Assembly (NCBI RefSeq): GCF_000960975.1
Contig: NZ_CP010803.1
Span: 2,756,405-2,820,404, forward strand
Source of the DNA: Martelella endophytica
GTDB lineage: Bacteria > Pseudomonadota > Alphaproteobacteria > Rhizobiales > Rhizobiaceae
Direction: 5' to 3'
DNA length: 64,000 bases
Shown: positions 29,789-44,690 of the stretch, in pieces
Layout: every line of letters starts with the position of its first letter
How positions within the stretch are numbered: position 1 is the first letter of the stretch
Program-made: the position numbers and the translations under genes
The notes under the pieces: model-generated
Told to the model about the DNA's origin: nothing
Databases searched by the model: none
The model's input: the letters and a program-made list of their open reading frames with translations, nothing else

Positions 29789-30997
29789 CTATCCGTCCTT
29801 CCGCCGGCTCGGCATTCCGTCGAGATAGAGCACCAGGGCTGCGCCGACGAAACCGGCAAAGGCAGCGAGAATAGCGGCGCCGGCGTAGTTCGAGATGTGG
29901 GTGCCAAGCGCGAACAGGCCGGCGCCGATGCCGGCGCTTGAAAACATGTTCACCGAGATCAGCGAGCTTCCGAGTCCCGGCTTGTCGGCGATGAGGTTCT
30001 GCAGATAGGTCACCGGAATGGAGATGATGGCGGCGGCGCCAAGCGCTGCGATCACCGTCAGCGCATAGGCCTGCCACGGCGCGGTGACATTGCCGAGCAG
30101 GAACAGGTAGATGGTGTAGATCACGGTGCCGATGACCAGCGTGACCACATTGGGCACGACGCGCTCGACATAGCCCCAGAAGATGATGAAGACGATCTCG
30201 AGAGCTGCAACAATGCCGACGAGAACGCCGACGTCCGAGACGGCGCCGCCGGCCTGGTTGGTGACGATCAGCGGCAGCACCGTGGCGTTCATGTGCAGCA
30301 TGGCCGTGATCAGCGCGATGGCGACGAGGCGTATCCAGAGCCCGGCGCCGGCAAAGGCGGAAAACGCCTTGAAGAACGGTTCCGTGGGACGCAGCCGCGG
30401 TGTCTTGTCCATCTTCGGCATGCCGAAGGTGAAGAGCAGGACGCAGGCGAGCGCGCTGATCGCTGAAAACAGGAAGGACGGCAGCATGTTGTCGGCGTCG
30501 GCGAGGGCTGCCCCAACGATACCCGGCACCAGCACCCAGGAGAGCGACAGCACCGCCCGGACACCGGAATTCACGGCCGCCATTTCCGCAGATGGCATGC
30601 CGGTGATCTCGGTGCGCACATTGGCGAAGATCAGCGGATAGAGCGCGGTGAAGAGCGGCACGAAGATCACCTTGGAAATGGTGAAGGTCGCAAGCGATGG
30701 CAGCAGGTAGACCATGCCGAAGCCGAAAACACCGGCAAGTCCGGTCGCAATCAGCGTCAGCCGGTAGCTGCCGAGCCGGTCGGTGAGATTGCCGATGAGC
30801 AAGCTTGCGGCCACAGAGACCACGGCTCCGAGCAGCATCACCAACGCATAGGCGCGGTCGGCCATGCCGAGTTCGTCGATGCCGATGATCGAGAGATAGG
30901 GCGAGGTCGCCGCTCCGGCAAAGCCGAAGAAGAACACACCCGCCGAAGAAATGCGGATCGCGGGATTGCCGAGAATGAGCGAAAGGGTTTTAGGCAT
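29789..30997 (-). CDS. MFS transporter (SetA/sugar-efflux-like)
   Basis: A 402-residue carrier with about twelve hydrophobic helices. The loop after helix 2 has the MFS pattern GNLTDRLGSYRL, and the overall pattern resembles SetA-type sugar transporters. Last gene of the minus-strand run RpiR, GH20, M81, MFS, 60 bases after the M81 stop. The ATG at 30997 has no clear ribosome-binding site, so translation may depend on coupling; an upstream ATG at 31036 is also possible. It may export or import a sugar or product of this pathway. Confidence 0.8.
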   Translation of the reverse strand: MPKTLSLILGNPAIRISSAGVFFFGFAGAATSPYLSIIGIDELGMADRAYALVMLLGAVVSVAASLLIGNLTDRLGSYRLTLIATGLAGVFGFGMVYLLPSLATFTISKVIFVPLFTALYPLIFANVRTEITGMPSAEMAAVNSGVRAVLSLSWVLVPGIVGAALADADNMLPSFLFSAISALACVLLFTFGMPKMDKTPRLRPTEPFFKAFSAFAGAGLWIRLVAIALITAMLHMNATVLPLIVTNQAGGAVSDVGVLVGIVAALEIVFIIFWGYVERVVPNVVTLVIGTVIYTIYLFLLGNVTAPWQAYALTVIAALGAAAIISIPVTYLQNLIADKPGLGSSLISVNMFSSAGIGAGLFALGTHISNYAGAAILAAFAGFVGAALVLYLDGMPSRRKDG

Positions 30998-31057
30998 TGC
31001 GTGACAAAGGCGTGCCGCCGGGGCACGCCTTTCCATGTCCTGAGGGGTGATTGAAGC

Positions 31058-32527
31058 TCACATCTCACGCTTTGCGTCATCCGCGCAAGCCCATCTTTTC
31101 GAAGGGCTGGGCAGCGGGCTATAGGCAAAATCCTTCTCGAACGGATAGCTTGGCTTCTGTCGGCGGAAATTCGGCAGGGCCTCGATATCCTGGTTGATGG
31201 CGCCGTCGGTGAGCGCCATCAGGTTCGGGTTGGCGATCGGTGCGAGCTCGGGCGAAAGGTAACCGGATTTCACCACCAGCAGCCGCACGGTTTTCGGGTC
31301 GAGGCCGAGTTGCGTGAAATCCGCGATGTTGTGATAGGGCCGCCGGCGTGCCGAAAGCACGATGGTAAGCCCGCCGGTTGTCACCACCGCCTGCCGTTCG
31401 TCGGCGCCTGCCGGATCGTCGAGGTGAATGACCTTGACCGGAGCCGTCACCGAAGGGCTCTTCTCATCCAGTGTCCCGCCGATCGAAAGATCTATTTCAG
31501 CGCCTTCTCCGGCAGCAAAGCATTTCTCCACCGCCGGGCGATCGGCGATGCCGGCGATCAGAGCATCGGAATAGTCGCGTTCGATCAATGCCTTCAGCAC
31601 ATCGGCGCGATCGCCGACACCGCCGCCTGTCGGGTTGTCGCCGGAATCGGCGAGGATGACGGGTTTGGTTTCCGCCTTTTCGGCAATATCGAGCATGTCG
31701 TCGAGCGGGCCGGTGACGGGGCCGAAGGAAAACGCCTCGCGGGCGTTCCAGTAGGAAAGTGCGATCTCGCTTGCAGCGGTCTCCGCGGCCACCCAGTCGG
31801 TCGCCGTCACGACAGCACATGCGGTGCCGCGCGGCTCGTCGGCCCAGACGTAGCCGACCATCAGGTTGGCATCCCAGATGCCGTCGCGGGTATCGATATC
31901 GGGAAGTTGCCGGTAGAGCGAGGCGGCGGGCTCGTCCTCGGTCGAGGTCCGCTCGCCGGGCAGCAGCACCGGTACCGGCGCCCAGATGACGCCGGGTCGT
32001 ATTCCGGTCTCAAGCGATTTCACCAGCATCGAATAGGCCCGGACCATCGTCTCGCGCATGTCGATATGCGGCGCGGTTCGATACGCCGCGAAGATATCGA
32101 TCTGGTCAACGATTGTCTGGCTGACATTGCCGTGGAGATCGTAGGAAACCGCGATCGGGCAATCCGGACCGACCGTTTCGCGCGCCGCCGAGATCCAGTC
32201 GGCCTCGGCATCGTCCATGCCCTCGACGTTCATCGCGCCGTGCATGGCCAGATAAAGCCCGTCGATGGGGAGGCTGGCCTTCAGGCGTTCCAGAAAGTCA
32301 GCCTTGAACGCCTCATAGGTCTGTGCCGAAACCGGGCCGCCCGGCACGGCGCGGGCGTGGAGCAGCGGCAGGATTTCGACGTCCGACGCATCATGGAGAA
32401 AGCTGAAATAGTCCGCTTTCGGCAAGTCGGCGCCGGCCAGCACGCGGAAATTCTCCGCCTGCATCAGCGCCGGATTGCCGGTCGAGCACTCCGTGTGGAT
32501 ACCACCTACGGCGATCCTGAATGTCAT
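31058..32527 (-). CDS. M81 family metallohydrolase (MlrC-like), copy 1
   Basis: A 489-residue enzyme of the MlrC/M81 family (DUF1485 plus MlrC C-terminal domain). Probable zinc ligands are Asp130 and His132 in SYDLHGNVS and His154 in APHIDMRE, with the same 22-residue spacing recalled for microcystinase MlrC. No signal peptide, so cytoplasmic. ATG at 32527 follows GAGGCGGAC. It starts seven bases after the GH20 stop, so hexosaminidase and M81 enzyme are coupled. The true substrate of most M81 proteins is unknown; here an amino-sugar peptide or amide is plausible. Confidence 0.85.
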   Translation of the reverse strand: MTFRIAVGGIHTECSTGNPALMQAENFRVLAGADLPKADYFSFLHDASDVEILPLLHARAVPGGPVSAQTYEAFKADFLERLKASLPIDGLYLAMHGAMNVEGMDDAEADWISAARETVGPDCPIAVSYDLHGNVSQTIVDQIDIFAAYRTAPHIDMRETMVRAYSMLVKSLETGIRPGVIWAPVPVLLPGERTSTEDEPAASLYRQLPDIDTRDGIWDANLMVGYVWADEPRGTACAVVTATDWVAAETAASEIALSYWNAREAFSFGPVTGPLDDMLDIAEKAETKPVILADSGDNPTGGGVGDRADVLKALIERDYSDALIAGIADRPAVEKCFAAGEGAEIDLSIGGTLDEKSPSVTAPVKVIHLDDPAGADERQAVVTTGGLTIVLSARRRPYHNIADFTQLGLDPKTVRLLVVKSGYLSPELAPIANPNLMALTDGAINQDIEALPNFRRQKPSYPFEKDFAYSPLPSPSKRWACADDAKREM

Positions 32528-32534
32528 GTCCGCC

Positions 32535-34454
32535 TCACAGTTTCGGGCTTGCAGGGGCAAGGGCGGCAAACCGCAGCCAGTCCTTGCGAGCCTTCGGAGT
32601 CCAGCCGGCTTCGGCGACGGCCGAGATGCGCGGGAAGACGAGATGGTTGAAATAGCCGCGCGAGAGGAAGTGCTCGCTCCAGATGCAGGACTGCACGCCG
32701 CGCATCTTCGGCTTCAGTTCCTCGGGGAATTCGCCTTCGGCCTCGTAATGGTAGCTGTGCTTCGGTGGCACGGTGCCGGCCCAGCTCGCGCCCGGCTCCT
32801 GAAAGGCCTCGTCCTGCACCATGTCGAGATAGTAGGCCTGGCCCGGCGTCATCACCACGTCATAGCCATCCTTTGCGAGGGCAATGCCGACTTCCGGCTT
32901 CTGCCAGGCCATCAGCAGCGTGCCGTCGCGCTCCACGCCGCCGCCGTGGGAGACCTCGTCCCAGCCGGCAAGTGTCTTACCGCGCTCGGCCAGCATCTTC
33001 TGGATGCGTTTCATGAAATAGGACTGCAGGCCGAATGTGCCTTCGATGTCTTCCTTTTCCATCAGCGCCTTGGCGAGCGGAGAGGCGAGCCAGGTATTGT
33101 TCGCCACTTCATCGCCACCGATATGGATGTAGCGGGCTGGAAACAGCGCGACCATCTCGTCGAACACCTTGCCGAGGAAGGCATAGGTCTCTTCGATCGC
33201 CGGGTTCAGCGCATTGTTCGGAAAACCCTGGACCGAATGATAGCTCTCCGGCGCCTCCTGCCCGTCGGCAAGCTCGGGAAGGGCGGCAAGGGCGGCCGTC
33301 GAGTGGCCGGGAATGTCAACTTCGGGAATGATCTCGATACCAAGCGACGCGCCTCGCGCGACAACTGCGAGAACATCGTCCTGCGTGTAGAAGCCGCGCA
33401 CCGGCTTGGCGCCATTGCCGAGCTGCGGCGGCATCTGCGTGCCCGGCGCACGGGTGGCGCCGATTTCGGTCAATGAGGGGTAGGCCTTGATCTCAAGGCG
33501 CCAGGCTTCATCGTCGGTGAGGTGCCAGTGGAAGATGTTCATCCGGTGCCAGGCGAGGATATCGAGCAGGCGGAGGACGTCCGTGGTCTCGTAGAACTGC
33601 CGCGACACGTCGAGGTGCGTCCCGCGCCAGCCATAGCGCGGCTGATCCTCTATCGTGCCCGAGGCAGGGAAGCGGAATGCCGAGCCCTTGCTGCGCGCGG
33701 CCGAGAGCATCTGCGCCAGCACGGTCAGGGCATACTGACGGCCGGTGGCGGTGGCGGCACGAATGGTGACGGTCTCGCCGAAGGTGATCGCGTAGGCTTC
33801 CTTCCCGAGGCTGTCGTCGGCTTCGAACGCCAAGGCCTTGCCGCCTTGCACCGGCGCGAGGCTGAAGGGTACGTGGCCGCTTTCGAACAGGCGGGAGAAA
33901 AGCGCGATGACGGTGTCGACCGATTTCACCGCTGCAATCTCTGTGCCTGCAACCGGGTATAGGGCAACGGGCGGCATTTCCGCCGGCTCGAGCGAAAGTG
34001 CTGCCGGCCAGGGCAGGATGAACCATGGCTCCTTGGCCTCGCCTTCGGGCAGCAGGGGCTGCGGCCTTTCGGCCGTCGAGCCTGCAAGCATCAGGTCGTC
34101 CACAGCGATGTCGACATAGCGATCGCCATCGAGGATGAGGTAAGCGGACTTGGCACCATCAGTGCGGTGCTGGGCCGGCCGGGTGAGGCCATTCACCGAG
34201 AAACGCCAGCTTTCGCCTGGCGAAAGCGTCAGTCCGTCAGGCGCCCTGAACTCGTGATAATTGGCGTTGCGGTGGACGAAAACGGCATTCTCGAAGGTCG
34301 ATTTCGTGCTCACCCGCGTCAGCGAGGTGTAGGCAAGCGAGAAACCGGAGAGGGGCTCGTCGGAGAGGTTATGAAGGCTGAAATCGAAGGCGCCGGTCGG
34401 ATCGCCGTCAACCGGGCGCCAGCTGTTTTCAAGGCGAAATGCGGATTTGGTCAT
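32535..34454 (-). CDS. GH20 beta-N-acetylhexosaminidase, cytoplasmic
   Basis: A 639-residue glycosidase that removes terminal N-acetylhexosamine from oligosaccharides. The first 130 residues are a beta-rich accessory region. The GH20b helper domain follows, then the barrel with GWRGTHLDVSRQFY, FHWHLTDDEAWR, EVDIPGHS and the catalytic Asp448-Glu449 pair in HIGGDEV. No signal peptide, so the substrate is imported first. It lies between the RpiR gene (34 bases upstream) and the M81 gene, and defines the cluster as amino-sugar related: chitooligosaccharides, glycan fragments or muropeptides. Confidence 0.93.
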   Translation of the reverse strand: MTKSAFRLENSWRPVDGDPTGAFDFSLHNLSDEPLSGFSLAYTSLTRVSTKSTFENAVFVHRNANYHEFRAPDGLTLSPGESWRFSVNGLTRPAQHRTDGAKSAYLILDGDRYVDIAVDDLMLAGSTAERPQPLLPEGEAKEPWFILPWPAALSLEPAEMPPVALYPVAGTEIAAVKSVDTVIALFSRLFESGHVPFSLAPVQGGKALAFEADDSLGKEAYAITFGETVTIRAATATGRQYALTVLAQMLSAARSKGSAFRFPASGTIEDQPRYGWRGTHLDVSRQFYETTDVLRLLDILAWHRMNIFHWHLTDDEAWRLEIKAYPSLTEIGATRAPGTQMPPQLGNGAKPVRGFYTQDDVLAVVARGASLGIEIIPEVDIPGHSTAALAALPELADGQEAPESYHSVQGFPNNALNPAIEETYAFLGKVFDEMVALFPARYIHIGGDEVANNTWLASPLAKALMEKEDIEGTFGLQSYFMKRIQKMLAERGKTLAGWDEVSHGGGVERDGTLLMAWQKPEVGIALAKDGYDVVMTPGQAYYLDMVQDEAFQEPGASWAGTVPPKHSYHYEAEGEFPEELKPKMRGVQSCIWSEHFLSRGYFNHLVFPRISAVAEAGWTPKARKDWLRFAALAPASPKL

Positions 34455-34488
34455 GAAACCCCTCTTTTGTTATCGGTGATGTCAGGTG

Positions 34489-35352
34489 TCAGTCGCCGAG
34501 AAGCTGGCTGTCGTCCTTGTCGCGATGAAGGACGAGCTGCTTCTTGATGTTTCTGAGCGTGGGGGCGGACTGCTCGCGGCTCAGATAGGCGACAAGATTG
34601 GCAAGTATGTCGATGAGCGCCAGATAGGCAAAACGGGTGGAGGTCGGGCGGTAGATGTTCTCGCCCTCGGGAAGGTCGACGCCGATCACCACGCCGGCGG
34701 CAGAGGCGACGGTGCTGCCGCTCTGGGTCAACGCGATGGTGGCGATGCCTGCCTTGCCGGCGATGTCGAGCGTGCGTGCAAGCTCGTGATTGCGCCCGGA
34801 AAACGAAGAGCCGATGATTACGTCCTTCGGTCCCGCAGCCGCGGTCAGCATCAGCTGCATCGAATGATCGGCGCTTGTGGTGATGCGCTTGCCGAGGCGG
34901 AACAGCCGGTTCTGAAGCTCTGCGGCGATCATCGAGGAGTTGCCGCCGGAGCCGAAAGCGTAGATCATTTCGGCTTCGACGAGCATTCTGGCCGCGGTCT
35001 CGACGCTTTGAAGATCAAGCGACCGGTGCATCAGGAACAGCGCGTTCTGCGCCTTGGTGACGACATCGGCGGCGACATCCTCGGCGCCCGAGCTGCGCGC
35101 CTCCGGGTTCAGGTAGCGCACGCCGACATAGGCGGTCTTGGCGAGCTGGACCTTGAAATCCGCGAAGTTCTGGCAGGAAAGGCGGCGGCAGAAGCGGGTG
35201 ACCGTCGGCGGCGAGACACCGGCGCGTTCGGCAAGCTCGACGATCGAGGCGTTGACCGCGAATTCGGAATCATTGAGCAGGATGTCGCAGATGCGCTTCT
35301 CGGCCTGCGAGAATTGATCGCGCTCTTCCTGCAGCACCATATAGATATCCAT
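34489..35352 (-). CDS. RpiR/MurR-family transcriptional regulator
   Basis: A 287-residue regulator: an N-terminal helix-turn-helix of the HTH_6 type (about 1-77, ELAERAGVSPPTVTRFCRRL) and a SIS sugar-phosphate binding domain (about 120-250, FGSGGNSSMIA and SSFSGRNHE). The ATG at 35352 has AGGGGA six bases upstream; an ATG at 35370 does not. It heads the GH20-M81-MFS operon and faces the NTF2-like/M81 pair. Members of this family sense phosphorylated sugars such as MurNAc-6-P or GlcNAc-6-P. It is the likely local repressor or activator. Confidence 0.9.
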   Translation of the reverse strand: MDIYMVLQEERDQFSQAEKRICDILLNDSEFAVNASIVELAERAGVSPPTVTRFCRRLSCQNFADFKVQLAKTAYVGVRYLNPEARSSGAEDVAADVVTKAQNALFLMHRSLDLQSVETAARMLVEAEMIYAFGSGGNSSMIAAELQNRLFRLGKRITTSADHSMQLMLTAAAGPKDVIIGSSFSGRNHELARTLDIAGKAGIATIALTQSGSTVASAAGVVIGVDLPEGENIYRPTSTRFAYLALIDILANLVAYLSREQSAPTLRNIKKQLVLHRDKDDSQLLGD

Positions 35353-35649
35353 ATCGTTCCCCTGCAGCATCCTGCCCGTGAGCAGAAGCGCTTTACCGCA
35401 ACCGGTTTCGAACGCCGGAAGGATCGGTCAGGGCCGGGAAGCCGGTGGCCGTTCTGCCGGAAAGCACCGACGGATCCGCACCTGCAGGCCGCAGGATGGA
35501 CCGTCAGTTTTCGTCACCTCAACCGGAGCGGTTTGCAACGCCATTTCATGCAAATTATTTTCTTTATTCGTTGACATGGCACCATAAAAACGGTCTTCTG
35601 GCTAGAGAAAAACCCCGTTTACGAAAAAAATTTAGACAAGTGGCGAGAT
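35353..35649. promoter_or_regulatory. divergent control region with candidate RpiR operator
   Basis: 297 bases between rpiR and the NTF2-like gene; the half from 35540 is strongly A/T-rich. GCAAATTATTTTC at 35550-35562 matches 11 of 13 positions of the dyad at 43401-43413 in front of the ABC operon. A TTGACA at 35571-35576 points toward the NTF2-like gene but lacks a good -10. GAAAAAAATTT at about 35623 may be a weaker site. Confidence 0.4.
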
Positions 35650-36132
35650 ATGCGCGATCCCTTCCGCAATCCTTTTCCCGAACACGATGAGGATCGCCGC
35701 GCGATCTGGGAAATGCTTGTTCCGCGCGACATCGAAGCCTTCCTTGCCGCCGACTGGAGCATGGTCGAAGACGACTTCGTTTCGATCGGCTTCTACGCGC
35801 TTGATGCCCGCCGCAAGCAGAACCCGGACGACTGGCGTCTCGGCTTCCCCGATCTTCCGCATTACCGCGACGAGTGGCTTCGCCAGGCGAATGACTTCGC
35901 CCGCGGCCGCTATGCCGACGATCCGAAGACCGCCATCTTCAATGCGACGACGCTGGAGGAAATCGAGATTTCCGGCGATGCTGCGCTGGTGCGCAAGAAA
36001 TTCGATGGTGGCATTCGTCTCGAGGATGGCAGCTTCGACGCCATGAACTGGCAGACGCTCTATTACTGCCGTCGCGAGGACGGACGCTGGAAGATCGCCG
36101 GTTTCACCGGCTACCTGCCGCACCCATTCTGA
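35650..36132 (+). CDS. NTF2/SnoaL-like small protein
   Basis: A 160-residue soluble protein rich in charged and aromatic residues. The pattern of an N-terminal helical region, central strand pairs and a C-terminal WKIAGFTGYLP strand after RREDGR resembles NTF2-like folds, which hold small ligands or act as isomerases or dehydratases. No catalytic motif can be named. It starts beside the divergent control region and is followed after 55 bases by the second M81 gene, so the two probably form one transcript. Confidence 0.6.
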   Translation: MRDPFRNPFPEHDEDRRAIWEMLVPRDIEAFLAADWSMVEDDFVSIGFYALDARRKQNPDDWRLGFPDLPHYRDEWLRQANDFARGRYADDPKTAIFNATTLEEIEISGDAALVRKKFDGGIRLEDGSFDAMNWQTLYYCRREDGRWKIAGFTGYLPHPF

Positions 36133-36187
36133 TATCATGACAGTGCGCATCGTTCTGGACCCGGACGGTGCGCCAGGGGGGAAGACG

Positions 36188-37648
36188 ATGCGGATTTTCA
36201 CGGCGGCGCTTGCGACCGAATCCAATACATTCTCGCCGATCTGCATCGACCGCAGCGCCTTCGTGGCCTCCTTCTATGCCGCGCCCGGCGAGCACCCGGC
36301 AACGCCGACGCTCTGCACCGCGCCGATCACCGTCGGTCGCGAGATGGCACGGGAGAAGGGGTTCGAGCTGATCGAGGGAACGGCCGCCTGGGCCGATCCC
36401 GCCGGCCTCGTCAATCGCAAGGCTTTCGAGGGTCTGCGCGATGAAATCCTCGACCAGTTGCGCGCCGCCATGCCGGTCGATGCTGTCGTGCTGGGGCTGC
36501 ATGGTGCGATGGTGGCCGCCGGCTATCTCGATCCGGAAGGCGATCTGCTGAGCCGTGTGCGCGAAATCGTCGGACCGGATGTTCTCGTCTGCGCCGAACT
36601 CGACCCGCACAGCCACCTGACGGAAAAGCGCGTTGCGGCGGCGGATTTCTTCGTCGTCTTCAAAGAGTTCCCGCATACCGATTTCGTCGATCGCGCCCGC
36701 GATCTCTGGCGGATTGCGCTGGATACGCTTGAAGGCAAGGTGAAGCCGGTGATGTCGGTCTTCGACTGTCGCATGATCGACGTCTTCCCGACATCGCGCG
36801 AACCGATGCGCAGTTTCGTCGACAACCTGTTCGCGCTGGAACAGTCCGATCCCGATGTCCTGTCTCTCTCCGTCATTCATGGTTTCATGGCCGGCGACGT
36901 GCCCGAAATGGGTACGAAGATGATAGCTGTGACCAACGGCAAGCCGGAGAAGGGGGCAACGCTTGCCCGCGAGCTTGGGCTGAAGCTCTTCGAAAAGCGC
37001 GGCACGTTTCGCATGCCGGAAGTCGACGAGAAGGAAGCGCTGCAGAAGGCGCGAGCGCTTGTCGACAAGCGCCCGGTCGTCATCGCCGACATGTGGGACA
37101 ATCCCGGTGGCGGAACGGCGGGCGATGCCACCGTGGTGCTTGCCGAAATGCTGGACCAGGGCATCGAGAATGCCGCCGTTGGCACGATCTGGGACCCGGT
37201 AGCCGTCAGCATCTGCATGGCGGCGGGCGAGGGGGCCGAAATCCCGCTGCGTTTCGGCGCCAAGTCTGCCCCGTTTACCGGCGATCCGATCGACGGGCTG
37301 GTGCGCGTGGAGAAGATCAATCCAACAGCCGAGATGCGTTTCGGCGACAGTATCGTGCCCTTCGGTCCGGCCGTCACCATCCGCCTTGCCGGCATCGACA
37401 TCATCCTGAACACGGTGCGTGCGCAAAGCTACGATCCGTCGCTGTTTTCCGTGATGGGTATCGATCCGACGTCGCGCGATATCCTGGTGATCAAGTCGAC
37501 CAACCATTTCCACGCGGCCTTTTCCCGGATCGCAGGTGAGATCATCTATTGCGCCGCCGGCCGGCCCTATCCGAACAATCCGGCGCTCACGGCCTACCGC
37601 CACGCCCGCCGCGACATCTGGCCGATGGTCGCCAATCCGCACGGGTGA
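36188..37648 (+). CDS. M81 family metallohydrolase (MlrC-like), copy 2
   Basis: A 486-residue paralogue of the 31.1-32.5 kb enzyme, clearly diverged. Asp139 and His141 (AELDPHSHLT) and His163 (FPHTDFVD) occupy the zinc positions with the same 22-residue spacing; GLHGAMVA and MWDNPGGGTAGD are family motifs. The start at 36188 has an AGGGGGGAA ribosome-binding site; the frame from 36137 is ignored. It has no signal peptide. Two M81 genes in one cluster suggest two related cleavage steps or substrates in the same pathway. Confidence 0.85.
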   Translation: MRIFTAALATESNTFSPICIDRSAFVASFYAAPGEHPATPTLCTAPITVGREMAREKGFELIEGTAAWADPAGLVNRKAFEGLRDEILDQLRAAMPVDAVVLGLHGAMVAAGYLDPEGDLLSRVREIVGPDVLVCAELDPHSHLTEKRVAAADFFVVFKEFPHTDFVDRARDLWRIALDTLEGKVKPVMSVFDCRMIDVFPTSREPMRSFVDNLFALEQSDPDVLSLSVIHGFMAGDVPEMGTKMIAVTNGKPEKGATLARELGLKLFEKRGTFRMPEVDEKEALQKARALVDKRPVVIADMWDNPGGGTAGDATVVLAEMLDQGIENAAVGTIWDPVAVSICMAAGEGAEIPLRFGAKSAPFTGDPIDGLVRVEKINPTAEMRFGDSIVPFGPAVTIRLAGIDIILNTVRAQSYDPSLFSVMGIDPTSRDILVIKSTNHFHAAFSRIAGEIIYCAAGRPYPNNPALTAYRHARRDIWPMVANPHG

Positions 37649-37723
37649 TCAGGGGCGGCAGGCTGTCGCCGCGCTCTCGCGGCTGACGGGTACATAGTCT
37701 TTTCGCAAGGGTCGGCGCTTGCA

Positions 37724-37762
37724 CCCAAATCTTCTCTCCCCGCCGGGGCAAGAAGATTTGGG
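37724..37762. terminator. bidirectional terminator-like palindrome
   Basis: Perfect 12-base arms CCCAAATCTTCT (37724-37735) and complement (37751-37762), with an inner CCCC/GGGG pair. It is placed between the converging M81 gene and the ABC ATPase gene. There is no long T run; the element may be a member of the rhizobial palindrome families. Confidence 0.55.
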
Positions 37763-37791
37763 GTCCGTGCGGGAGCGCCGAACAACCCGGA

Positions 37792-38925
37792 TTACGTCGC
37801 CTCGGGCACCATCACCGTTTCGAAATCGAAGTCCGTCAGCTCGACGCGGCGTTCCAGCGCGTTGCCATCTTCCGTGAAAAGGTGGCAGTCGGCGGCGCGG
37901 ACGCCGATGGTGACCTCCTCGTCGACGCGCACGGGCGCCGAGCCCGGCGTCAGCGAGCAGAAGGTTACATCCTCGCCGAAGGTGGCGTAGGCGATCGTGT
38001 TGATGCCGAGGCGCTCGATGACGGTCGGAGTGATCTTGATCGAAATATCGCCGCCTCCGAGGCGCGTATGCTCCGGACGCACGCCGAGAGTCAGCGTCTG
38101 GCCTTCGAGGTCGGCTTTTGGCTCGACCGGGACGGTCAGCGTTTGCCCCTTGTAATCGACGGTCACGCCGGCCTCGCTCACGCCGGTGCAGGTGACGGGC
38201 AGGAAGTTCATCGGTGGGTTGCCGATGAAGCGGGCGACGAACAGGTTCTGCGGCTTGTGGTAAAGCTCCAGCGGCGCGCCGACCTGGGCGATGTCGCCGG
38301 CATTCAGCACGACGATGCGGTCGGCCATGGTCATGGCCTCGATCTGGTCGTGGGTCACGTAGATCATGGTGGCCTTCAGGTCGTGGTGAAGGCGGGTCAG
38401 TTCTATGCGCATCTCGCCGCGCAATGCGGCGTCGAGGTTGGAAAGCGGCTCGTCGAACAGGAAAATCTTCGGTTTTCGGACAATGGCGCGGCCGATGGCG
38501 ACGCGCTGGCGCTGGCCGCCGGAAAGCATGCCCGGCTTCTGCTGCAGGCGTTCGCCGAGCTGAAGGATACCGGCTGCCGCCTCGACCCGCTCGCGCACCT
38601 CCGCTTCCGCCATCTTCTGCACACGCAGCGGAAAGGCGATGTTTTCGTAGACGGTCATGTGCGGATAGAGCGCGTAGGACTGGAACACCATCGAGATGCC
38701 GCGCCGGACGGGCGGCAGATTGTTGACGCGGGCGTCGTCGATGGTGATGTCGCCGGACGTGATGTCCTCAAGCCCCGCGATCATGCGCAGGAGCGTGGAC
38801 TTGCCGCAGCCCGACGGGCCGACGAAAACGACGAACTCGCCCTCGTTCACCTCGAGGTCGATGCCCTTGATGACATCGTAGATGCCGTAGTTCTTGTGAA
38901 TATTCTTGAGATTGAGCTGGCCCAA
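37792..38925 (-). CDS. sugar ABC transporter ATP-binding protein (UgpC family), TTG start
   Basis: A 377-residue CUT1 ATPase: Walker [10 protein letters not shown], signature [10 protein letters not shown], Walker [12 protein letters not shown], and a longer C-terminal TOBE region than the other two copies. The frame continues far upstream without family similarity; the natural N-terminus GQLNLKNIHKNYG begins at a TTG at 38925, preceded by AGGAGAGACCT, so TTG is taken as the start. Last gene of the 43.3-37.8 kb minus operon, directly after the binding-protein gene and its hairpin. Confidence 0.85.
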   Translation of the reverse strand: MGQLNLKNIHKNYGIYDVIKGIDLEVNEGEFVVFVGPSGCGKSTLLRMIAGLEDITSGDITIDDARVNNLPPVRRGISMVFQSYALYPHMTVYENIAFPLRVQKMAEAEVRERVEAAAGILQLGERLQQKPGMLSGGQRQRVAIGRAIVRKPKIFLFDEPLSNLDAALRGEMRIELTRLHHDLKATMIYVTHDQIEAMTMADRIVVLNAGDIAQVGAPLELYHKPQNLFVARFIGNPPMNFLPVTCTGVSEAGVTVDYKGQTLTVPVEPKADLEGQTLTLGVRPEHTRLGGGDISIKITPTVIERLGINTIAYATFGEDVTFCSLTPGSAPVRVDEEVTIGVRAADCHLFTEDGNALERRVELTDFDFETVMVPEAT

Positions 38926-38980
38926 AGGTCTCTCCTGCCGCGTGTTTCCCGCAATGGCCGCCGTGGCCAGCGAAGAAAGG

Positions 38981-39006
38981 GCCGCCCGGCGAAGACGCCG
39001 GGCGGC
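38981..39006 (-). promoter_or_regulatory. intercistronic stem-loop after binding-protein gene
   Basis: Perfect 11-base GC-rich arms, GCCGCCCGGCG (38981-38991) and complement (38996-39006), with a four-base loop, seven bases past the binding-protein stop. On the minus strand it is followed by CCCTTTCTTC, a weak T-rich tail, so partial termination before the ATPase gene is possible. Confidence 0.6.
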
Positions 39007-39013
39007 GGGGCTG

Positions 39014-40231
39014 TTACTTGTACTCTTCGATTTCCGAGGCGGTGGACGACAGCACGTCGGCCGGCTCCTTGGAGCCGATGACGACGGACTGGACCATATC
39101 GACCATGGCGTTCTGGAACGCCTGGTAGTCGGTGAAGAGCGGCTCCGGACCACCGAACTCGATGCCGTCGAGGAACGGCTTCCAGGTCGGGTCTTCGGCA
39201 ACCATCTCCTCAACGCCCGGAACCGGACGCAGCGGCGTCAGACCGTGGGTCTTTTCATAGTAGAACTGGTTGTCGGGATTGGTCAGCCACTTGGCGAGGC
39301 TGATCGCCTGTTCCTCGACGCCGGTGCCATCGAAGACGGCAAGGCTGTCGGTGATCAGCAGCGTGCCGGGACCCTTGGCCTTCGGGCCCTGCGGCAGAAG
39401 CGCCACGCCCCAGTTCAGGTCGTCATTGACGCGGTTGCGCACCCATGGTCCCTGTTCGATCATGGCGACCTTGGCGTCGTTGAAGAGCGGCGTCAGTTCG
39501 TCCTGCTCGTAGGCCGTGGGGCCTTCTTCGGCGACGTCGACCATCTTCTTGTACCACTGCAGCGCCTCAAGGTTCTGCGGGCTGTCGAGGACGATGTTGC
39601 CGTCTGCATCCACGACCTGACCGTCATTGGTGTAAACCCAGTGCAGGTACTGGTGCATGGTGTTGTCGAAGCTCTTCGCCGTCAGGCCGAAACCGGGGGT
39701 GCCGGTCTTGTCCTTGATGGTCTTCGCCATGTCGTAGAGTTCGTCCCACGTCTTCGGCGGGGTCTCCGGATCGAGACCGGCTTCCTTGAACAGGTCCTTG
39801 TTCCAGTAGAGTGCCTTGGTCGAGAAGGCGACCGGAACGCCCCACTGCTCGCCATCGAAGGAAACGGTGTCGACGATGTGCGGGTAATAGCTCGCCTTTT
39901 CCTCATCCGTCATCGGGAACGGAACGATCAGGCCGTTTTCGGAGAGCTGCTTCAGCGTGCGCGAGCCCATGTAGGCGAGCGCGATCGGCGTGCCGGCGGC
40001 TGCAAGGTTGGTTGCCTTTTCCTGGCACTGGCCCCAGCCGACGACTTCCGTCTCGACCTTGAAGCCCGGATTGTTCTTCTCCCACTCGGCGATGAAGCCG
40101 TCATAGCCTTCGGCAAGCTCGTCGCCGCACTGGATCATCGAGACGACCTGGTCGTCGGCCGAGGCCATTGGTGCCGAAGCGACCAGCGCGAGTGCTGCGA
40201 CGCCGAAGCAGAGTTTCCTGAAGTCACGCAT
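39014..40231 (-). CDS. sugar ABC transporter substrate-binding protein (CUT1)
   Basis: A 405-residue periplasmic binding protein. Signal peptide MRDFRKLCFGVAALALVASA, ending PMASADD; the mature protein has the family 1 fold (FIAEWEKNNPGFKVETEVVGW, FSTKALYWNKDLFKEAGLDP). Unlike the other two sugar operons of the window, it lies after the permeases rather than first. The clustered hexosaminidase and RpiR regulator suggest an N-acetylated amino sugar or oligosaccharide as ligand; this is inference from context. Confidence 0.88.
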   Translation of the reverse strand: MRDFRKLCFGVAALALVASAPMASADDQVVSMIQCGDELAEGYDGFIAEWEKNNPGFKVETEVVGWGQCQEKATNLAAAGTPIALAYMGSRTLKQLSENGLIVPFPMTDEEKASYYPHIVDTVSFDGEQWGVPVAFSTKALYWNKDLFKEAGLDPETPPKTWDELYDMAKTIKDKTGTPGFGLTAKSFDNTMHQYLHWVYTNDGQVVDADGNIVLDSPQNLEALQWYKKMVDVAEEGPTAYEQDELTPLFNDAKVAMIEQGPWVRNRVNDDLNWGVALLPQGPKAKGPGTLLITDSLAVFDGTGVEEQAISLAKWLTNPDNQFYYEKTHGLTPLRPVPGVEEMVAEDPTWKPFLDGIEFGGPEPLFTDYQAFQNAMVDMVQSVVIGSKEPADVLSSTASEIEEYK

Positions 40232-40374
40232 TTCTTATTCCCCTGTGTGTCGTCCAGTTAACCGAGGGCCCGTGGACGGTGCGGGCCGTAGACACGCGAC
40301 AGAACGGATCTGCCGTTGGTTATGGCGGTCGTGTTTCTCCCCCGACCGCCAAGGTCGAGCGGGCTTTAGGCCCG
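40232..40374 (-). promoter_or_regulatory. permease/binding-protein spacer with hairpins
   Basis: 143 bases without a gene. GGCGGTCG (40324-40331) pairs with CGACCGCC (40343-40350), and a second GC-rich arm pair lies near 40358-40376 next to the permease stop. A spacer of this length could hold an internal promoter that raises binding-protein synthesis; no clear -10/-35 was recognised. Confidence 0.35.
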
Positions 40375-41232
40375 TCAGCTCTTCACAGCACCCGCCGTCA
40401 TGCCGGCGACGAGATAGCGCTGCAGGAAGATGAAGACGATGAAGACCGGCAGGATGCCGACGAAGCTCGCGGCCATCAGCTCGTTCCAGATCACTTCCTG
40501 GCGGCCGAAGAAGGCATAGAGGCCGACGGGTAGCGGCATGTATTCGGTCTTCGAGTTGAACGTCAGCGCATAGATGAACTGCTGCGCATAAATGGTCAGG
40601 AATGCGGCGATCGCGACCACCGCGATGCCCGGCATGGCAAGCGGCACGATGACGCGGCGGAAGGTGTAGAAACGGCTCGCGCCATCGACAAGCGCGGCTT
40701 CTTCCAGTTCGCGCGGGATGCGCAGCATGTAGGTGCGCAGCAGCCAGATGCCGGTCGGGATGGTGAAGGCAACGCCTGGAACGATCATCGCGAAATAGGT
40801 GTTGATCAGCCCGAAGGAGCGCATCAGGCGGAACAGCGGGATGAGCAGCACCGCGCCAGAGAACATGTTGACGGCGAGGAACATGCCGAGCAGCGGGCCG
40901 CGCCCCCTGAAATCGAAACGGGCGAAGGCGTAGGCCGCGGGCGTCACGAAGATCACCGAAAGCAGCGTACCAACGCCGGCGATGAAGATCGAGTTGAGGA
41001 TGTAGCGGCCGAGCAGCGGCACCCGCTCCCACATGTTGATATAGGCATCAATCGACGCCTCCTCGGGCCAGAACTTATAGGGCGAGGAAAACAGATGGTT
41101 GAGCGGCTTCAGCGAGACCATGAAGCCCTCGACGAAGGGCGCCAGCACGAATGCGAGGAACAGAAGCAGGCCGGCATAGATGCCAATCAGCTCGTACCAG
41201 CGATAATGATGGATGCGGGCGGTCGGTTTCAT
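40375..41232 (-). CDS. sugar ABC permease (MalG type)
   Basis: A 285-residue inner-membrane subunit of normal family length with about six helices. It carries the EAA loop (ELEEAALVDGASRFYTF) and ends VAGMTAGAVKS. It overlaps the upstream permease by four bases, so both are made together. It pairs with the 41.2-42.1 kb subunit and the 39.0-40.2 kb binding protein. Confidence 0.9.
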   Translation of the reverse strand: MKPTARIHHYRWYELIGIYAGLLLFLAFVLAPFVEGFMVSLKPLNHLFSSPYKFWPEEASIDAYINMWERVPLLGRYILNSIFIAGVGTLLSVIFVTPAAYAFARFDFRGRGPLLGMFLAVNMFSGAVLLIPLFRLMRSFGLINTYFAMIVPGVAFTIPTGIWLLRTYMLRIPRELEEAALVDGASRFYTFRRVIVPLAMPGIAVVAIAAFLTIYAQQFIYALTFNSKTEYMPLPVGLYAFFGRQEVIWNELMAASFVGILPVFIVFIFLQRYLVAGMTAGAVKS

Positions 41233-42113
41233 CGGGCGGCCTCTCCGGAAAAGCGGCTGACGGCGCGGAAATAAAGGAAGCAGAAGATCGACAGGAAGAT
41301 GCAGATCAACACCGCGCGCGCGGCGCCTGCGCCGAACTTGTAGGAGCCGATCGCGACCTTGTAGGTGTCGATGATCATCGTCGTGGTGGCGCTCGACGGG
41401 CCGCCCTTGGTCAGGATCCAGATGATGTCGAAGGAATTGAAGGTCGAAATCAGCGATAGCATCGACATCGTCACCATGGCCGGAACGATGAGCGGCAGGG
41501 TGATGCGGCGGAAGCGGTAGAAGCGGCCGGCGCCGTCGGTCCAGGCTGCCTCGTAGAGGTCGCTCGGGATCGACTGCATGGCCGCGAGCAGGTAGATCGT
41601 CACCATCGGCACGCCGATCCAGACATCGGTGACGATCGTGGCGATGAAGGCCGAGGTGCCGGTGGCAAGGATTGGGAAGGGGCCGTCAAGGATGCCGAGG
41701 CGCTGGGCGACGCCGGAGATCATGCCGAACTGGCCGTTATACATCCAGCCCCACATGAAGATACCGATCGCCATCGGCACGATCCACGGCGGCATGGTCA
41801 GCACCCGGAACATGGTCTTGCCGGGAACTGCGGCATTCAGCAGCACCGCGCCGCAGGTGCCGATCACCATCTTGGTTGCCACCGAGAAGAAGGTCCAGAT
41901 GAAGGTGCGGACAATAACGCTGCCGAAGCCGCGCTCGAAGATATCGAAGTAGTTCTTCAGGCCGACCCAGTCATAGGTGCGCCTCAGCGAGGCATCCGTG
42001 AAGGAGAGCTTGATCGTGTCGACCAGAGGGTAGGCGACGATCAGCGCCAGATAGAGGAGAGCGGGAAGGAGGAGGGCCCAGGCGAAGATTGTTGCGCTTC
42101 GTTTCAGATCCAT
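41229..42113 (-). CDS. sugar ABC permease (MalF type)
   Basis: A 294-residue inner-membrane subunit: first helix at about 9-31 (FAWALLLPALLYLALIVAY), short periplasmic loop, then the permease core with EAA loop LYEAAWTDGAGRFYRF. Its periplasmic loop is short, in contrast to the MalF-type protein at 11-12 kb. It lies 12 bases after the Gfo/Idh gene in the same operon. Confidence 0.9.
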   Translation of the reverse strand: MDLKRSATIFAWALLLPALLYLALIVAYPLVDTIKLSFTDASLRRTYDWVGLKNYFDIFERGFGSVIVRTFIWTFFSVATKMVIGTCGAVLLNAAVPGKTMFRVLTMPPWIVPMAIGIFMWGWMYNGQFGMISGVAQRLGILDGPFPILATGTSAFIATIVTDVWIGVPMVTIYLLAAMQSIPSDLYEAAWTDGAGRFYRFRRITLPLIVPAMVTMSMLSLISTFNSFDIIWILTKGGPSSATTTMIIDTYKVAIGSYKFGAGAARAVLICIFLSIFCFLYFRAVSRFSGEAAR

Positions 42114-42125
42114 TTTCGCTCTCCC

Positions 42126-43304
42126 TCAGCCGGCCGACGCCGCGACCTGCGCCTCACCATGCAGAAGCGCGTCATAGCGCGCCCAGACGGGCGAAAGGTC
42201 GACGACCTTGTGCTCGTTGCGGGCCTCGTCCATGGCGAGCGCGAGAATGCCGGCCTCGATGGCGTCGAGCGCGGAAACGGGAAGCGGTACGCCGCGGGTG
42301 ATATGGGCGATCACGTCCTCCGCCATCTGCTCGTCGGCACCGTAATGCGCCGAGCGTTCGGATGGTGCCGTATAGGTCTTCGACACCGTCTTCTCGCTGG
42401 TGCGGGCATCATGGACATTGAAGAAGCCCCGTACGAAATCGCCCTCGGCCATGCCCTTGGCGCCGATCACGCAGAAGCGGCGGAATTCGTCCGGCACGTT
42501 GAGATTGGTGTGGAAGGTCATCGCGACCCCGTTCTCATATTCGATCGTCGCCGTCTGGTAATCGATGATGTCGGCGTCGCTGTCGAACACCTTGTCGGCG
42601 CCCATCCAGCCGCTCGGCTTGCGGTGATAGACCTCGATGTCGTTGGCGCCGGTGCCCTGCGGGGCATTGGCCGGCGTGAAGCTCTTGCGGCCGCCGAAGG
42701 AGGCGACATAGCGCGGTCGTGCGCCGACGACGCCGTTATAGAGGTCCAGGTCGTGGCAGCATTTTTCCAGCATGAACGGTCCGGCATAACGGGCATAACG
42801 GCGCCAGTCGCGCATGAAAAACGCGCCGTGATAGGGCGCAATATGTTCGGAGGCCTCGATGGATACGATGTCGCCGAGACGGCCTTCGGCCTGGGCGGTG
42901 CGCAGATCGCGGTAAAGCGGAGAGTAGCGCAGCACGAGGCCGACTAGCAGCCGGTCGTGGCCATAGGTGTTGAGCAGAGCCGCCAGTTTATAGCTTTCCT
43001 CGATCGAGGTGACGATCGGCTTCTCGGTAAACACGGTCAGCCCGGCTTCTAGGCCGATGCGGATGTGATCGAGATGCATGAAATTGGGCGAGCCGATCAT
43101 CAGAAGGTCGAAGGTTTCGGCCGCGATCATCGCCTCCGGCGTCTCGTAGGACGTGCCGGGCGAGATATTGTCCTTCTGGAGCGTCTCAAGGCCGGCCGGA
43201 TTGGGGTCGACGTAGCCGACGATCTCGAAGTCCGGGTCCATTTCGCGGAACACCGCGCCAAGATAACCAAGACGGAATCCGAGTCCGATAATAGCGACTT
43301 TCAT
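42126..43304 (-). CDS. Gfo/Idh/MocA family oxidoreductase, first gene of ABC operon
   Basis: A 392-residue NAD(P)-binding dehydrogenase: Rossmann start MKVAIIGLGFRLGYLGAVF, FTEKPIVTS with the family Lys, and EKCCHDLDLYNGVVG with the HD-type catalytic region. ATG at 43304 behind GGGAACAG. It leads the operon oxidoreductase, permease, permease, binding protein, ATPase, so its substrate is probably the imported sugar or a derivative. The gene lies downstream of the palindromic operator candidate at 43398-43416. Confidence 0.85.
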   Translation of the reverse strand: MKVAIIGLGFRLGYLGAVFREMDPDFEIVGYVDPNPAGLETLQKDNISPGTSYETPEAMIAAETFDLLMIGSPNFMHLDHIRIGLEAGLTVFTEKPIVTSIEESYKLAALLNTYGHDRLLVGLVLRYSPLYRDLRTAQAEGRLGDIVSIEASEHIAPYHGAFFMRDWRRYARYAGPFMLEKCCHDLDLYNGVVGARPRYVASFGGRKSFTPANAPQGTGANDIEVYHRKPSGWMGADKVFDSDADIIDYQTATIEYENGVAMTFHTNLNVPDEFRRFCVIGAKGMAEGDFVRGFFNVHDARTSEKTVSKTYTAPSERSAHYGADEQMAEDVIAHITRGVPLPVSALDAIEAGILALAMDEARNEHKVVDLSPVWARYDALLHGEAQVAASAG

Positions 43305-43327
43305 AGAAAACTGTTCCCGACATTTTC

Positions 43328-43416
43328 GTAATTTATTTTCTTCAGACTGGTGCAAGAAACCCAGGACGTCAACAAATTTTCATACGGAAAATGAATTCAT
43401 GAAAATGATTTTCATG
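43328..43416 (-). promoter_or_regulatory. promoter/operator region of the third ABC operon
   Basis: A perfect 19-base palindrome CATGAAAATGATTTTCATG at 43398-43416, and a second related site GTAATTTATTTTC at 43328-43340 (10 of 13 matches to its core). Between them on the minus strand lies TTGACG (43367-43372) as possible -35; the -10 near 43345 is poor. Sites flanking a promoter in this way suit an RpiR-type repressor. 43417-43618 shows no further gene. Confidence 0.45.
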
Positions 43417-43618
43417 GGACGCGCGCATTTGGTGTTGCAAGTGTAGCATGCAGCGCTTGGCGAGCAAGGCCATTCAGATGATTAAAGGCAATGGCCCTGT
43501 CATTGGGCTTTTTGCGTCTGGCCTGTTGAAAACCCATTGGCCGAAAGCGATGGAAAAGACCGGAAAACTGGCTACTGAACGTGTCGAAAGGCGTTTGGAC
43601 CGATCAAGGGAGACGTGC

Positions 43619-44028
43619 ATGGCGAAGATCAGCGTATTCGGCATAGGTTATACGGGCACAGTCTCGGCCGCCTGCCTTGCGGACCAGAAGCACGAGGTGG
43701 TTGCGGTCGATATCGATCCGGCCAAGGTCGAGGCGATCAATGTCGGCCGGACGCCGATCGTCTAGGATGGGCTTGGCGAACTGGTGGCCCGCAACCGCAC
43801 GGCCGGCCGGCTCTCCGCGACCACGGACATTGCAGCCGCCTTTGCCGGAAACGATCTTTCGATCATCTGCGTCGGGACACCGGGTGAGGCCGACGGCGCG
43901 ATCGGGCTGTCCCAGGTTCGGGCGCTGAGCGCCACGATCGGTGCGGCCCTTGCTGAAAAGACCGGTTTTCACAGGGTTATGACGTAAAAATATACGATCC
44001 CTTCGTAAAAGCGGCGTGTGATGAGAAA
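43619..44028 (+). pseudogene. algD-like nucleotide-sugar dehydrogenase remnant
   Basis: A decayed GDP-mannose/UDP-glucose dehydrogenase gene. The ATG at 43619 has an AGGGAG ribosome-binding site, and the frame reads MAKISVFGIGYTGTVSAACL, the dinucleotide-binding N-terminus of AlgD-type enzymes. A TAG at 43763 interrupts at the position where relatives have Glu (PIVE-x-GL). Similarity continues through SIICVGTPGEADG to about 43975, then stops. A short piece in another frame (GYDVKIYDPFV, from 43975) looks like the C-terminal domain of the same family, implying a large internal deletion. Nonfunctional. Confidence 0.7.
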
Positions 44029-44690
44029 ATGAGTGGTGCTGGCCGCGGCAAGGTCGATGATCTCGAATCCCGGCTGGTCGATACTGTGGATCACTTCAAC
44101 TATTGGGACAATGAAGCGCCGCCGATGGCCCGGCTTGGCAATCTGCGGCTCTGGGCGGCCTATGCCGTGACCGAGGCGGGCCTGATCCTCGATCGTCAGG
44201 ATTTCATTGACTGGGCGCTCGAGAGCCAGCGCGCGGTTCTTTCGACGGAGGAGGCCGACGGCAGCTTGCCCTACGAAATGCGGCGCGGCGCCTATGCGCT
44301 GCACTACCAGCTTCACGCGCTGGCGCCGCTGGCAGCATCCGCGGCGCTCCTCTGTCATGCCGGGCAGGGTTATTCGGAGGCGGAGCAGGGGCGATCAGGA
44401 GGGCAGTCGAATTCGCGCTCGCCGCTATCGCCGATCCGTCGAAGGTTGTCGCGATCACCGGCGTCGCCCAGACGGTCCCTGCGGGCCTCGAAAATCAGGA
44501 GAGCTTTACCATCGCCTGGCTGGAGGCCTATCTGGCGCTCGTGACGGACGGCAATCTTGATCGCGATCTGGCACCGCGGCGGCCGCTGGTCAATTCCAAG
44601 CTCGGGGGAGACCTGACCCTGATCTACCGCAACAATCCGCGTATGCAGCCGGGTTGCTTTTCGGTTCGCAAGACGCCGTCGACAGACTAG
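44029..44690 (+). pseudogene. algL-like alginate lyase remnant
   Basis: The C-terminal half of a PL5-type (mannuronate-specific) alginate lyase. Recognisable stretches are FNYWDNEAPPMARLGNLRLW, DGSLPYEMRRGAYALHYQLHAL and, after a frameshift, ESFTIAWLEAYLALVTD and LGGDLTLIYRNNPRMQPG. The frame changes near 44388-44391 through loss of one base, then runs to TAG at 44688. The N-terminal half and signal peptide are missing; the frame fuses to the algD-like C-terminal piece. In Pseudomonas-type loci algD and algL belong to one alginate operon, so this is probably the scar of a deleted polysaccharide cluster. Confidence 0.65.

Follow-up and report, generated by a model that had tools for sequence, protein, structure and literature searches.

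A possible KDPG-responsive amino-sugar regulon with two M81 metallohydrolases in Martelella endophytica and its relatives

The ong cluster, as presented by Jiang et al. 2022 (PMC9537276), comprises the RpiR regulator OngR, the GH20 enzyme OngA, a D-aminoacylase-like N-acetylglucosaminate deacetylase (OngB), a fold-III pyridoxal phosphate (PLP) deaminase (OngC), the RidA protein OngD and the kinase KdgK. According to the same source, OngA is periplasmic and the pathway runs from N-acetylglucosaminate through glucosaminate to 2-keto-3-deoxygluconate (KDG) and 2-keto-3-deoxy-6-phosphogluconate (KDPG). OngB has since been placed next to the D-aminoacylases in a study (PMC12017989, 2025) whose main text contains no occurrence of M81, Rhizobi or Alphaproteobacteria. 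Here we describe a cluster that partly resembles ong and lies in a stretch of 64,000 nucleotides of Martelella endophytica (the window; positions 2756405-2820404 of a single 4.81-Mb contig). It joins an RpiR regulator and a GH20 to two metallohydrolases of peptidase family M81, M81A and M81B, and to a sugar importer. That import, GH20 and M81 genes form one regulon under RpiR is well supported, the regulator presumably acting as a repressor. That this is an ong-like, KDPG-responsive, RpiR-repressed amino-sugar regulon for a chitin-derived N-acetylglucosamine (GlcNAc) sugar, with M81 in the position of the deacetylase, is a proposition that we regard as evenly balanced.

A sequence-only reading had listed the genes of this cluster, and every one of them was present as an open frame between 29789 and 43355. 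RpiR, GH20, M81A and a major facilitator superfamily (MFS) transporter follow one another on the minus strand, never separated by more than a few tens of bases. Divergent from them, on the plus strand, a 160-aa protein precedes M81B, and an importer operon (Gfo/Idh, two permeases, solute-binding protein, ATPase) converges on M81B from the minus strand. Some of the open frames extend too far at their 5' ends: judged by eye and by similarity, M81A probably starts at the ATG near 32527, just past the GH20 stop, Gfo at the ATG near 43307 and the ATPase near 38925.

29789..31036, minus strand: MFS transporter, distantly SetA-like (Pfam MFS_1 59.6 bits; TIGR00899 62.8 bits, cut-off 522)
31058..32569, minus strand: M81A metallohydrolase (DUF1485 314 bits, MlrC_C 166 bits)
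32535..34454, minus strand: GH20 beta-N-acetylhexosaminidase (Glyco_hydro_20 360 bits; nearest solved structure Nag2 6ezr, residues 23-630, 364 bits)
34489..35370, minus strand: RpiR/HexR/RccR-type regulator (HTH_6 59.6 bits, SIS 47.1 bits)
35650..36132, plus strand: small NTF2/SnoaL-like protein of 160 aa opening the M81B operon (weak assignment, sub-threshold profiles)
36137..37648, plus strand: M81B metallohydrolase, the one nearer MlrC (Pfam DUF1485 263 bits, MlrC_C 171 bits; 7ylq 370 bits)
37792..38925, minus strand: MalK-type ATPase of the sugar importer (ABC_tran, OB_MalK, TOBE_2; MalK model 469 bits, cut-off 568)
39014..40231, minus strand: solute-binding protein, SBP_bac_1 (148 bits)
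40375..41232, minus strand: importer permease 2 (BPD_transp_1; MalG-like)
41229..42113, minus strand: importer permease 1 (BPD_transp_1)
42126..43307, minus strand: Gfo/Idh/MocA oxidoreductase opening the importer operon (GFO_IDH_MocA 62.8 bits, C-terminal domain 63.3 bits)

The cluster has in common with ong of Pseudoalteromonas and Vibrio, as far as that system is set out in PMC9537276, the RpiR repressor and the GH20; its relatives in other genomes also share the fold-III PLP enzyme and an OngD-like RidA, and may share the KDG/KDPG end point. Measured against the same description, it has M81 genes and no OngB, an ATP-binding cassette (ABC) importer where ong has the SSS symporter, KdgK outside the cluster and no lytic polysaccharide monooxygenase (LPMO). 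Its GH20 belongs to another subfamily (31-34% identity) and has no signal peptide by eye, Gfo and short-chain dehydrogenase/reductase (SDR) genes are added, and the hosts are Alphaproteobacteria. The window's own cluster, unlike ong, is without an OngC-type PLP enzyme, an OngD-type RidA and KdgK.

For this comparison we used six Vibrio and Photobacterium stretches of ong make-up (L203-L208). In L205 the gene order was GH20-KdgA-KdgK-SSS-RidA-D-aminoacylase and then PLP-RpiR (names partly by eye), with 362 bits for KdgK, 194 for a HexR-like and 119 for a BhcC-like protein. The window RpiR aligned with OngR at 32-34% identity over its full length in four of the six stretches (L204-L207), in two shorter pieces in L208 and not at all in L203, and the window GH20 matched its ong counterpart at 31-34% in five. 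The RidA of a relative (L120) was 54-57% identical to that of all six. RidAs of five GH20-M81B loci were 53-55% identical to OngD versus 29-34% to canonical RidA, and those of three PLP-M81 units without GH20 47-48% versus 34-40%, a small tree leaving the branching unsettled. A search for an OngB-type deacetylase in the 13 genomes with the cluster gave 22-bit fragments in two and nothing in 11, whereas the Vibrio controls G152 and G157 scored 776 and 1093 bits; in four further M81 genomes it gave weak matches in G051 and G142 (25-48 bits). The frame with the weak OngB matches in G051 has an M81 gene some 1-2 kb away (C11:159888-163764). The Photobacterium stretch L208 looked broken, with a short PLP match beside the divided RpiR match.

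The cluster recurs. In a reference set of 151 genomes of the family, its own included, M81A orthologues (at least 60% identity) were found in 17 and GH20 orthologues (at least 59%) in 12. M81A directly adjoined GH20 in 11 of the latter, the exception being G029, with its GH20 and M81A on other contigs, and 10 of the 12 also had M81B in the same cluster. As a second set we took named genomes with a GH20 alignment and considered the best 80 of at least 587 loci; the two collections may share species, so the loci are not fully independent. Among these 80, the 19 loci with a GH20 of at least 48% identity included M81A in 14, M81B in 13 and either of them in 16. The other 61 had M81B in L134 and L136, and L135 contained it as a short contig-edge piece from a second cluster. 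No M81 match was obtained with the window-cluster queries in the 49 non-alphaproteobacterial loci (L140-L157, L159-L189). Rhizobium loci of R. phaseoli, R. chutanense and R. leguminosarum (L122, L124, L126) keep GH20 and have no M81, and the link between the two is thus frequent, not absolute. In L106 and L107 the same Gfo-led importer (59-77% identity) was joined to a different GH20 (about 40%) with no M81, which ties the importer to GH20 independently. The co-occurrence of GH20 and M81 pairs for which the sequence-only reading had proposed a search was therefore borne out in rhizobial genomes, and an accidental neighbourhood is ruled out by this recurrence together with the palindrome pair presented below. 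Two unusual loci were seen along the way: L135 holds a copy of the cluster that lacks a GH20 and M81A of its own and adjoins an Opp-GH20 locus, and L078 (G088) gave no orthologue match for RpiR, NTF2, M81B or MFS, its M81A being followed by a PfkB-type sugar kinase.

The regulator could be compared with a protein of known ligand. The window RpiR scored 174 bits with the HexR model, below its cut-off of 296, and its nearest solved structures were 8ju9 and 8k3b (131 bits), the latter being RccR with KDPG (PMC10810197). The contacts given there are S139, H148, R152, H164, S183, S185, S188, K270 and R277, and mutation of R152, K270 or R277 abolished KDPG binding. Six of these nine are kept in the window RpiR as S145, R158, S189, S191, K276 and R283, equivalent to RccR S139, R152, S183, S185, K270 and R277 and including all three mutation-critical residues; H148, H164 and S188 are not kept. 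At these six positions the cluster RpiRs, those of L091-L093 and four OngR proteins all have S/R/S/S or T/K/R. In the RpiR of L095-L098 the K/R pair is not kept in full, and four weak paralogues from the window's own genome, in poor alignments, do not keep R158, K276 and R283 together. With most of the KDPG pocket kept, the window RpiR is predicted to be a KDPG sensor, which the residues support and do not prove. They agree, along with the HTH_6 and SIS domains, with the earlier assignment to sugar-phosphate-type RpiR proteins. As described for RccR and HexR (8K3B, PMC10810197; PMC5489143), the likeness lies in the HTH_6 and SIS domains and the six contacts, and the two 15-bp sites of RccR at aceE (PMC5489143) resemble the paired sites at the window promoters. 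The window RpiR differs from RccR in its operator sequence, in the 73-bp pair and in having local catabolic targets instead of central metabolism.

These paired sites, which we take to be putative operators, are as follows.

35550..35562: NTF2-M81B promoter, putative operator site 1, GCAAATTATTTTC
35623..35635: NTF2-M81B promoter, putative operator site 2, at a distance of 73 bp from site 1 and with TTGAC at 35571 in between
43328..43340: Gfo-importer promoter, putative operator site 2
43401..43413: Gfo-importer promoter, putative operator site 1, GAAAATGATTTTC

The palindrome GAAAATNATTTTC has its only perfect copy in the genome at 43401-43413, before Gfo. Six more places carry it with one mismatch, 35550-35562 among them, compared with three for a backward control. 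At both the Gfo and the NTF2-M81B sites a similar partner palindrome lies 73 bp off, with a TTGAC element between the two. The five other one-mismatch places were rejected as targets, no recognised amino-sugar gene adjoining any of them: three are in or at the start of unrelated-looking frames (L003, L005, L007) and two are intergenic (L002, with a partly masked neighbour, and L006). A promoter scan of 35200-43700 gave two promoter-like sites versus 2.0 expected.

When called at no more than 2 of 100 shuffles, the 73-bp pair stood out at 27 of 29 NTF2 promoters, 12 of 19 Gfo promoters, six of seven M81B promoters and two of four PLP promoters, the last two kinds coming from seven chosen loci. 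It was not found at the Gfo promoters of L077, L078, L106, L107, L127, L134 and L136, the NTF2 promoters of L106 and L127, the M81B promoter of L136 or the other two PLP promoters. Its presence followed the regulator: the Gfo promoter had the pair in 12 of 13 loci with an RpiR of at least 60% identity, whereas none of the six other loci did, RpiR being absent from the matrix in L078, L106, L127 and L136 and 46% identical in L107 and L134. The two failing NTF2 promoters also belong to loci without RpiR in the matrix, and L134 carries the pair at its M81B promoter. As a search pattern, the pair occurred at exactly two places in the window's genome and at 24 distinct places in 13 of the 151 genomes, and its backward control at none in the 151. 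By position, 23 of the 24 are Gfo or NTF2 promoters of the cluster (the Gfo start of G029 is a presumed one), and the remaining place (G142) lies before the RidA of an RpiR-PLP-M81B unit. The pattern was built from these promoters and finds them by construction; the result is the lack of hits elsewhere. Together with the recurrent cluster, the pair at both promoters upholds the single regulon that the sequence-only reading had proposed.

The genes that accompany the cluster in relatives suggest what it may act on. Counted over the 28 loci with an RpiR of at least 60% identity, the window among them, an SDR lay between RpiR and GH20 in 25 and a RidA between NTF2 and RpiR in 24, L121 having it elsewhere. 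A fold-III PLP enzyme followed M81B in 16; some loci end short, L118 has only a fragment inside, and G009 and G113 have a 71-72% PLP copy elsewhere in the genome. The PLP enzyme of the relatives scored 200 bits with the BhcC model (cut-off 690) and 200 bits with its nearest PDB entry, D-threonine aldolase 4v15. Of the 47 genomes having both an M81 and a PLP gene of this kind (at least 280 bits), 24 have the two starting no more than 10 kb apart, for a rough expectation of 0.4. Loci L091-L093 combine RpiR, RidA, PLP and M81B with an Opp-type importer and give no GH20 match, so that M81 is tied to PLP more widely than to GH20. A PLP enzyme of the D-threonine aldolase/D-serine dehydratase kind and a RidA beside M81B, together with the KDPG pocket, point to a D-amino-acid-like amino-sugar acid of the glucosaminate type that leads to KDG and KDPG, not to a peptide. 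The idea that the M81 pair cuts the peptide part of a glycopeptide, muropeptide or similar conjugate is not borne out.

M81A and M81B are the only M81 genes in the 4.81-Mb genome, and both DUF1485 and MlrC_C exceed their gathering scores in each, which places them in peptidase family M81. MlrC cuts an amide at the amine side of a D-amino acid (D-iso-Glu), and the gene neighbours of the mlr cluster differ from those of M81A and M81B. The Zn ligands of MlrC as given in PMC9982164, E39, D167, H169 and H191, are all kept in M81B when aligned with 7ylq, and Leu stands in place of the general base E70. M81A keeps D167, H169, H191, H133 and D332, with E39 and E70 outside the alignment. Both proteins are thus like MlrC (7YLQ, PMC9982164) in their two domains and Zn ligands, for M81A those inside the alignment; they are unlike it in the loss of E70 in M81B and in falling far under the 999-bit cut-off of the MlrC model NF041767 (M81B 383, M81A 150 bits). 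Microcystin is ruled out as the substrate by this model score and the loss of E70. A second M81A group (60-62%) was seen in L081, L083 and L084 with apparent Opp-type importers, and in L084 a NagC/Mlc-like ROK regulator adjoins M81A (NagC model 164 bits, cut-off 650).

Several neighbourhoods connect the cluster with chitin sugars. In L088 the RpiR stands back to back with an M81B-GH20-GNAT-Opp importer operon (GNAT by eye), the binding protein of which matched the solved chitin-oligosaccharide binding protein 1zty with 480 bits. Directly before Gfo, G017 has a GntR regulator, a NagA that exceeds the cut-off of TIGR00221 (288 bits against 226) and a NagB-II-like protein that stays below its own (295 against 430). 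The GH20-M81B pair of L136 likewise has a GntR next to it, together with a NagB-II-like protein scoring 296 bits. NagA is present in all 13 cluster genomes. Some GH20 loci of Vibrio, which we take to be the chitobiose locus, have a binding protein of the chitin-oligosaccharide type and an Opp-type ABC importer, and import GlcNAc oligosaccharides before GH20 acts. Among the best 80 of at least 587 loci, these Vibrio loci gave no M81, RpiR, PLP or RidA match with window-cluster-type queries, and L088 combines their type of importer with M81B and RpiR. With a sugar importer in the cluster and no signal peptide visible by eye at the N-terminus of GH20 (no predictor was used), the earlier view that import precedes hydrolysis and that GH20 cuts the N-acetylhexosamine part is retained.

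In the pathway that we propose, the MalK-type importer would take up a GlcNAc disaccharide, either chitobiose or the C1-oxidised GlcNAc-GlcNAc1A, and Gfo/Idh, with the SDR in relatives, would oxidise the sugar if it arrives unoxidised. GH20 would release GlcNAc, destined for NagA/NagB, and N-acetylglucosaminate, from which M81B, perhaps with M81A, would remove the N-acyl group to give D-glucosaminate. The fold-III PLP enzyme, aided by RidA, would deaminate the latter to KDG, and phosphorylation would yield KDPG, the presumed inducer freeing RpiR from its paired operators. This chemistry draws on the logic of OngB and OngC and on the place where MlrC cuts its D-amino-acid substrate, the amine side. 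D-glucosaminate being a beta-hydroxy-D-amino acid, the succession from M81 to PLP would be a natural one. We infer the substrate, the step order, the deacylase role of M81 and the repression, and what we observed in silico is the gene set, its recurrence, the palindromes, the KDPG-contacting residues and the partner genes. Tentatively, and a little short of even confidence, we suggest that M81 is a second, unrelated family of N-acetylglucosaminate (or wider N-acyl-D-amino-acid) deacylases that replaces OngB in a rhizobial KDPG-sensing pathway without LPMO, in which the oxidised sugar is imported or made by Gfo/Idh and SDR and two operators about seven helical turns apart flank the promoter core.

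Several points weigh against this pathway. The PLP enzyme of the relatives (L074) is 25-28% identical to OngC and nearer D-threonine aldolase. No kinase was seen in any cluster except the PfkB-type one of L078, and the KdgK-like gene found elsewhere in all 13 genomes scored 237-327 bits, below the curated cut-off of 400, as does the KdgK of the true ong cluster in L205. LPMO (AA10) was found in none of the 13 genomes; self-made oxidised chitin is ruled out, and an oxidised substrate would have to be scavenged or made in the cell. KDPG also arises in ordinary glucose catabolism, so its pocket supports the glucosaminate route without proving it. We know of no M81 enzyme that deacetylates an amino sugar, and the proposal gives no account of why there are two M81 genes. 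Finally, the window cluster itself is without PLP, RidA and SDR.

This last point raises the possibility that the regulon in the window strain is a partly decayed relic, in which importer, GH20 and M81 are left, the SDR/RidA/PLP branch is gone and growth on the original substrate is lost. The window lacks RidA (missing in four of 28 loci), SDR (missing in three) and PLP, and the four gaps of the window gave chance-level matches only when searched for remnants of the three. Its remaining genes, however, are open and both palindrome pairs are intact. In addition, a diverged set of CutC-like, RidA (38%), SDR (41%) and fold-III PLP (49%) genes adjoin one another outside the window at G000:C1:2737700-2740920 (L090 7719-10916), about 47 kb from the cluster, the RidA-SDR-PLP genes at about 2.738-2.741 Mb. 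For the window strain, the PLP, RidA and SDR steps would have to come from elsewhere, for example from this distant set, or have been lost. We consider such decay rather unlikely; it would be compatible with the KDPG-linked amino-sugar pathway in the relatives.

The nature of the PLP enzyme leaves room for another substrate, a GlcNAc conjugate with a true beta-hydroxy-D-amino acid (D-Ser, D-Thr or 3-hydroxy-D-Asp), for instance a portion of a lipopeptide or siderophore. GH20 would strip the GlcNAc, M81 would free the D-amino acid, and PLP and RidA would dehydrate or cleave it. This would suit the action of MlrC on the amine side of D-iso-Glu, the recurrence of M81 with PLP and without GH20 beside Opp-type importers (L091-L093, L095, L096), and the proximity of the PLP enzyme to D-threonine aldolase 4v15 and D-threo-3-hydroxyaspartate dehydratase. 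Yet in the GH20 clusters and in L091-L093 the RpiR keeps KDPG carboxylate contacts that would be needless for D-Ser or D-Thr, whereas in L095-L098 K and R are not both kept, and the NagA/NagB-II-like and chitin-oligosaccharide importer neighbours do not fit either. We hold this conjugate to be unlikely. Less probable again is an ordinary chitobiose/GlcNAc regulon, in which chitobiose is split by GH20, and GlcNAc or chitobiose itself is deacetylated by M81 to feed the usual glucosamine/NagB route: GH20, the chitin-type importer of L088 and the NagA/NagB-II-like neighbours in G017 and L136 would agree with it, but PLP, RidA, Gfo/SDR and the KDPG contacts would be left unexplained, and NagA is there already in 13 of 13 genomes. 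Most doubtful is the glycopeptide or muropeptide catabolism of the sequence-only reading, for which MlrC is a peptidase, GH20 could take GlcNAc off glycopeptides and Opp-type importers lie beside M81 in some relatives, but which is opposed by the sugar (MalK) type of the window importer, by M81B neighbours that are PLP, RidA and importer genes and not peptidases, by the loss of the MlrC general base E70 in M81B and by the lack of any recurring peptidase or MurNAc enzyme among the named cluster neighbours, many flanking frames being named by eye.

The amino-sugar pathway assigns no role to the CutC-like genes, the NTF2-like protein or the MFS transporter. The NTF2-like gene itself is real, and the label given to it earlier is weak, resting on sub-threshold DUF4440 (E 0.03) and SnoaL_3 (E 0.1) profiles and a single PDB match at E 0.03. 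A CutC-like gene, named by eye and by similarity to one ORF, recurs in the cluster loci L110-L113, L119, L121, L074 and L077 and was also seen near GH20 in L127, L183 and L188. Between the importer operon and the next gene, 43600-44500 holds what appears by eye to be a broken sugar-nucleotide dehydrogenase fragment, with an AlgD-like start and an in-frame stop.

At the level of titles and abstract openings, in a scope outside which most subscription journals lie, none of the papers listed described this regulon or an amino-sugar role for M81, and in the Rid family survey PMC4433059 a term search for microcystin, threonine aldolase, glucosamin and chitin found none of the four. Among the papers listed, a single M81 enzyme has a studied function; its substrate is a linearised cyanotoxin, and this is hardly likely to be what the family does in general. 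The link of M81 to a D-amino-acid-type PLP enzyme and an OngD-like RidA, and to amino sugars in the GH20 clusters, suggests a candidate natural substrate that can be tested, and the regulon with its 73-bp paired operators can be searched for by sequence. If the proposal is true, oxidative amino-sugar catabolism would extend from mainly gammaproteobacterial hosts to plant-associated Alphaproteobacteria, and the natural job of M81 may be the removal of the acyl group from an oxidised amino sugar.

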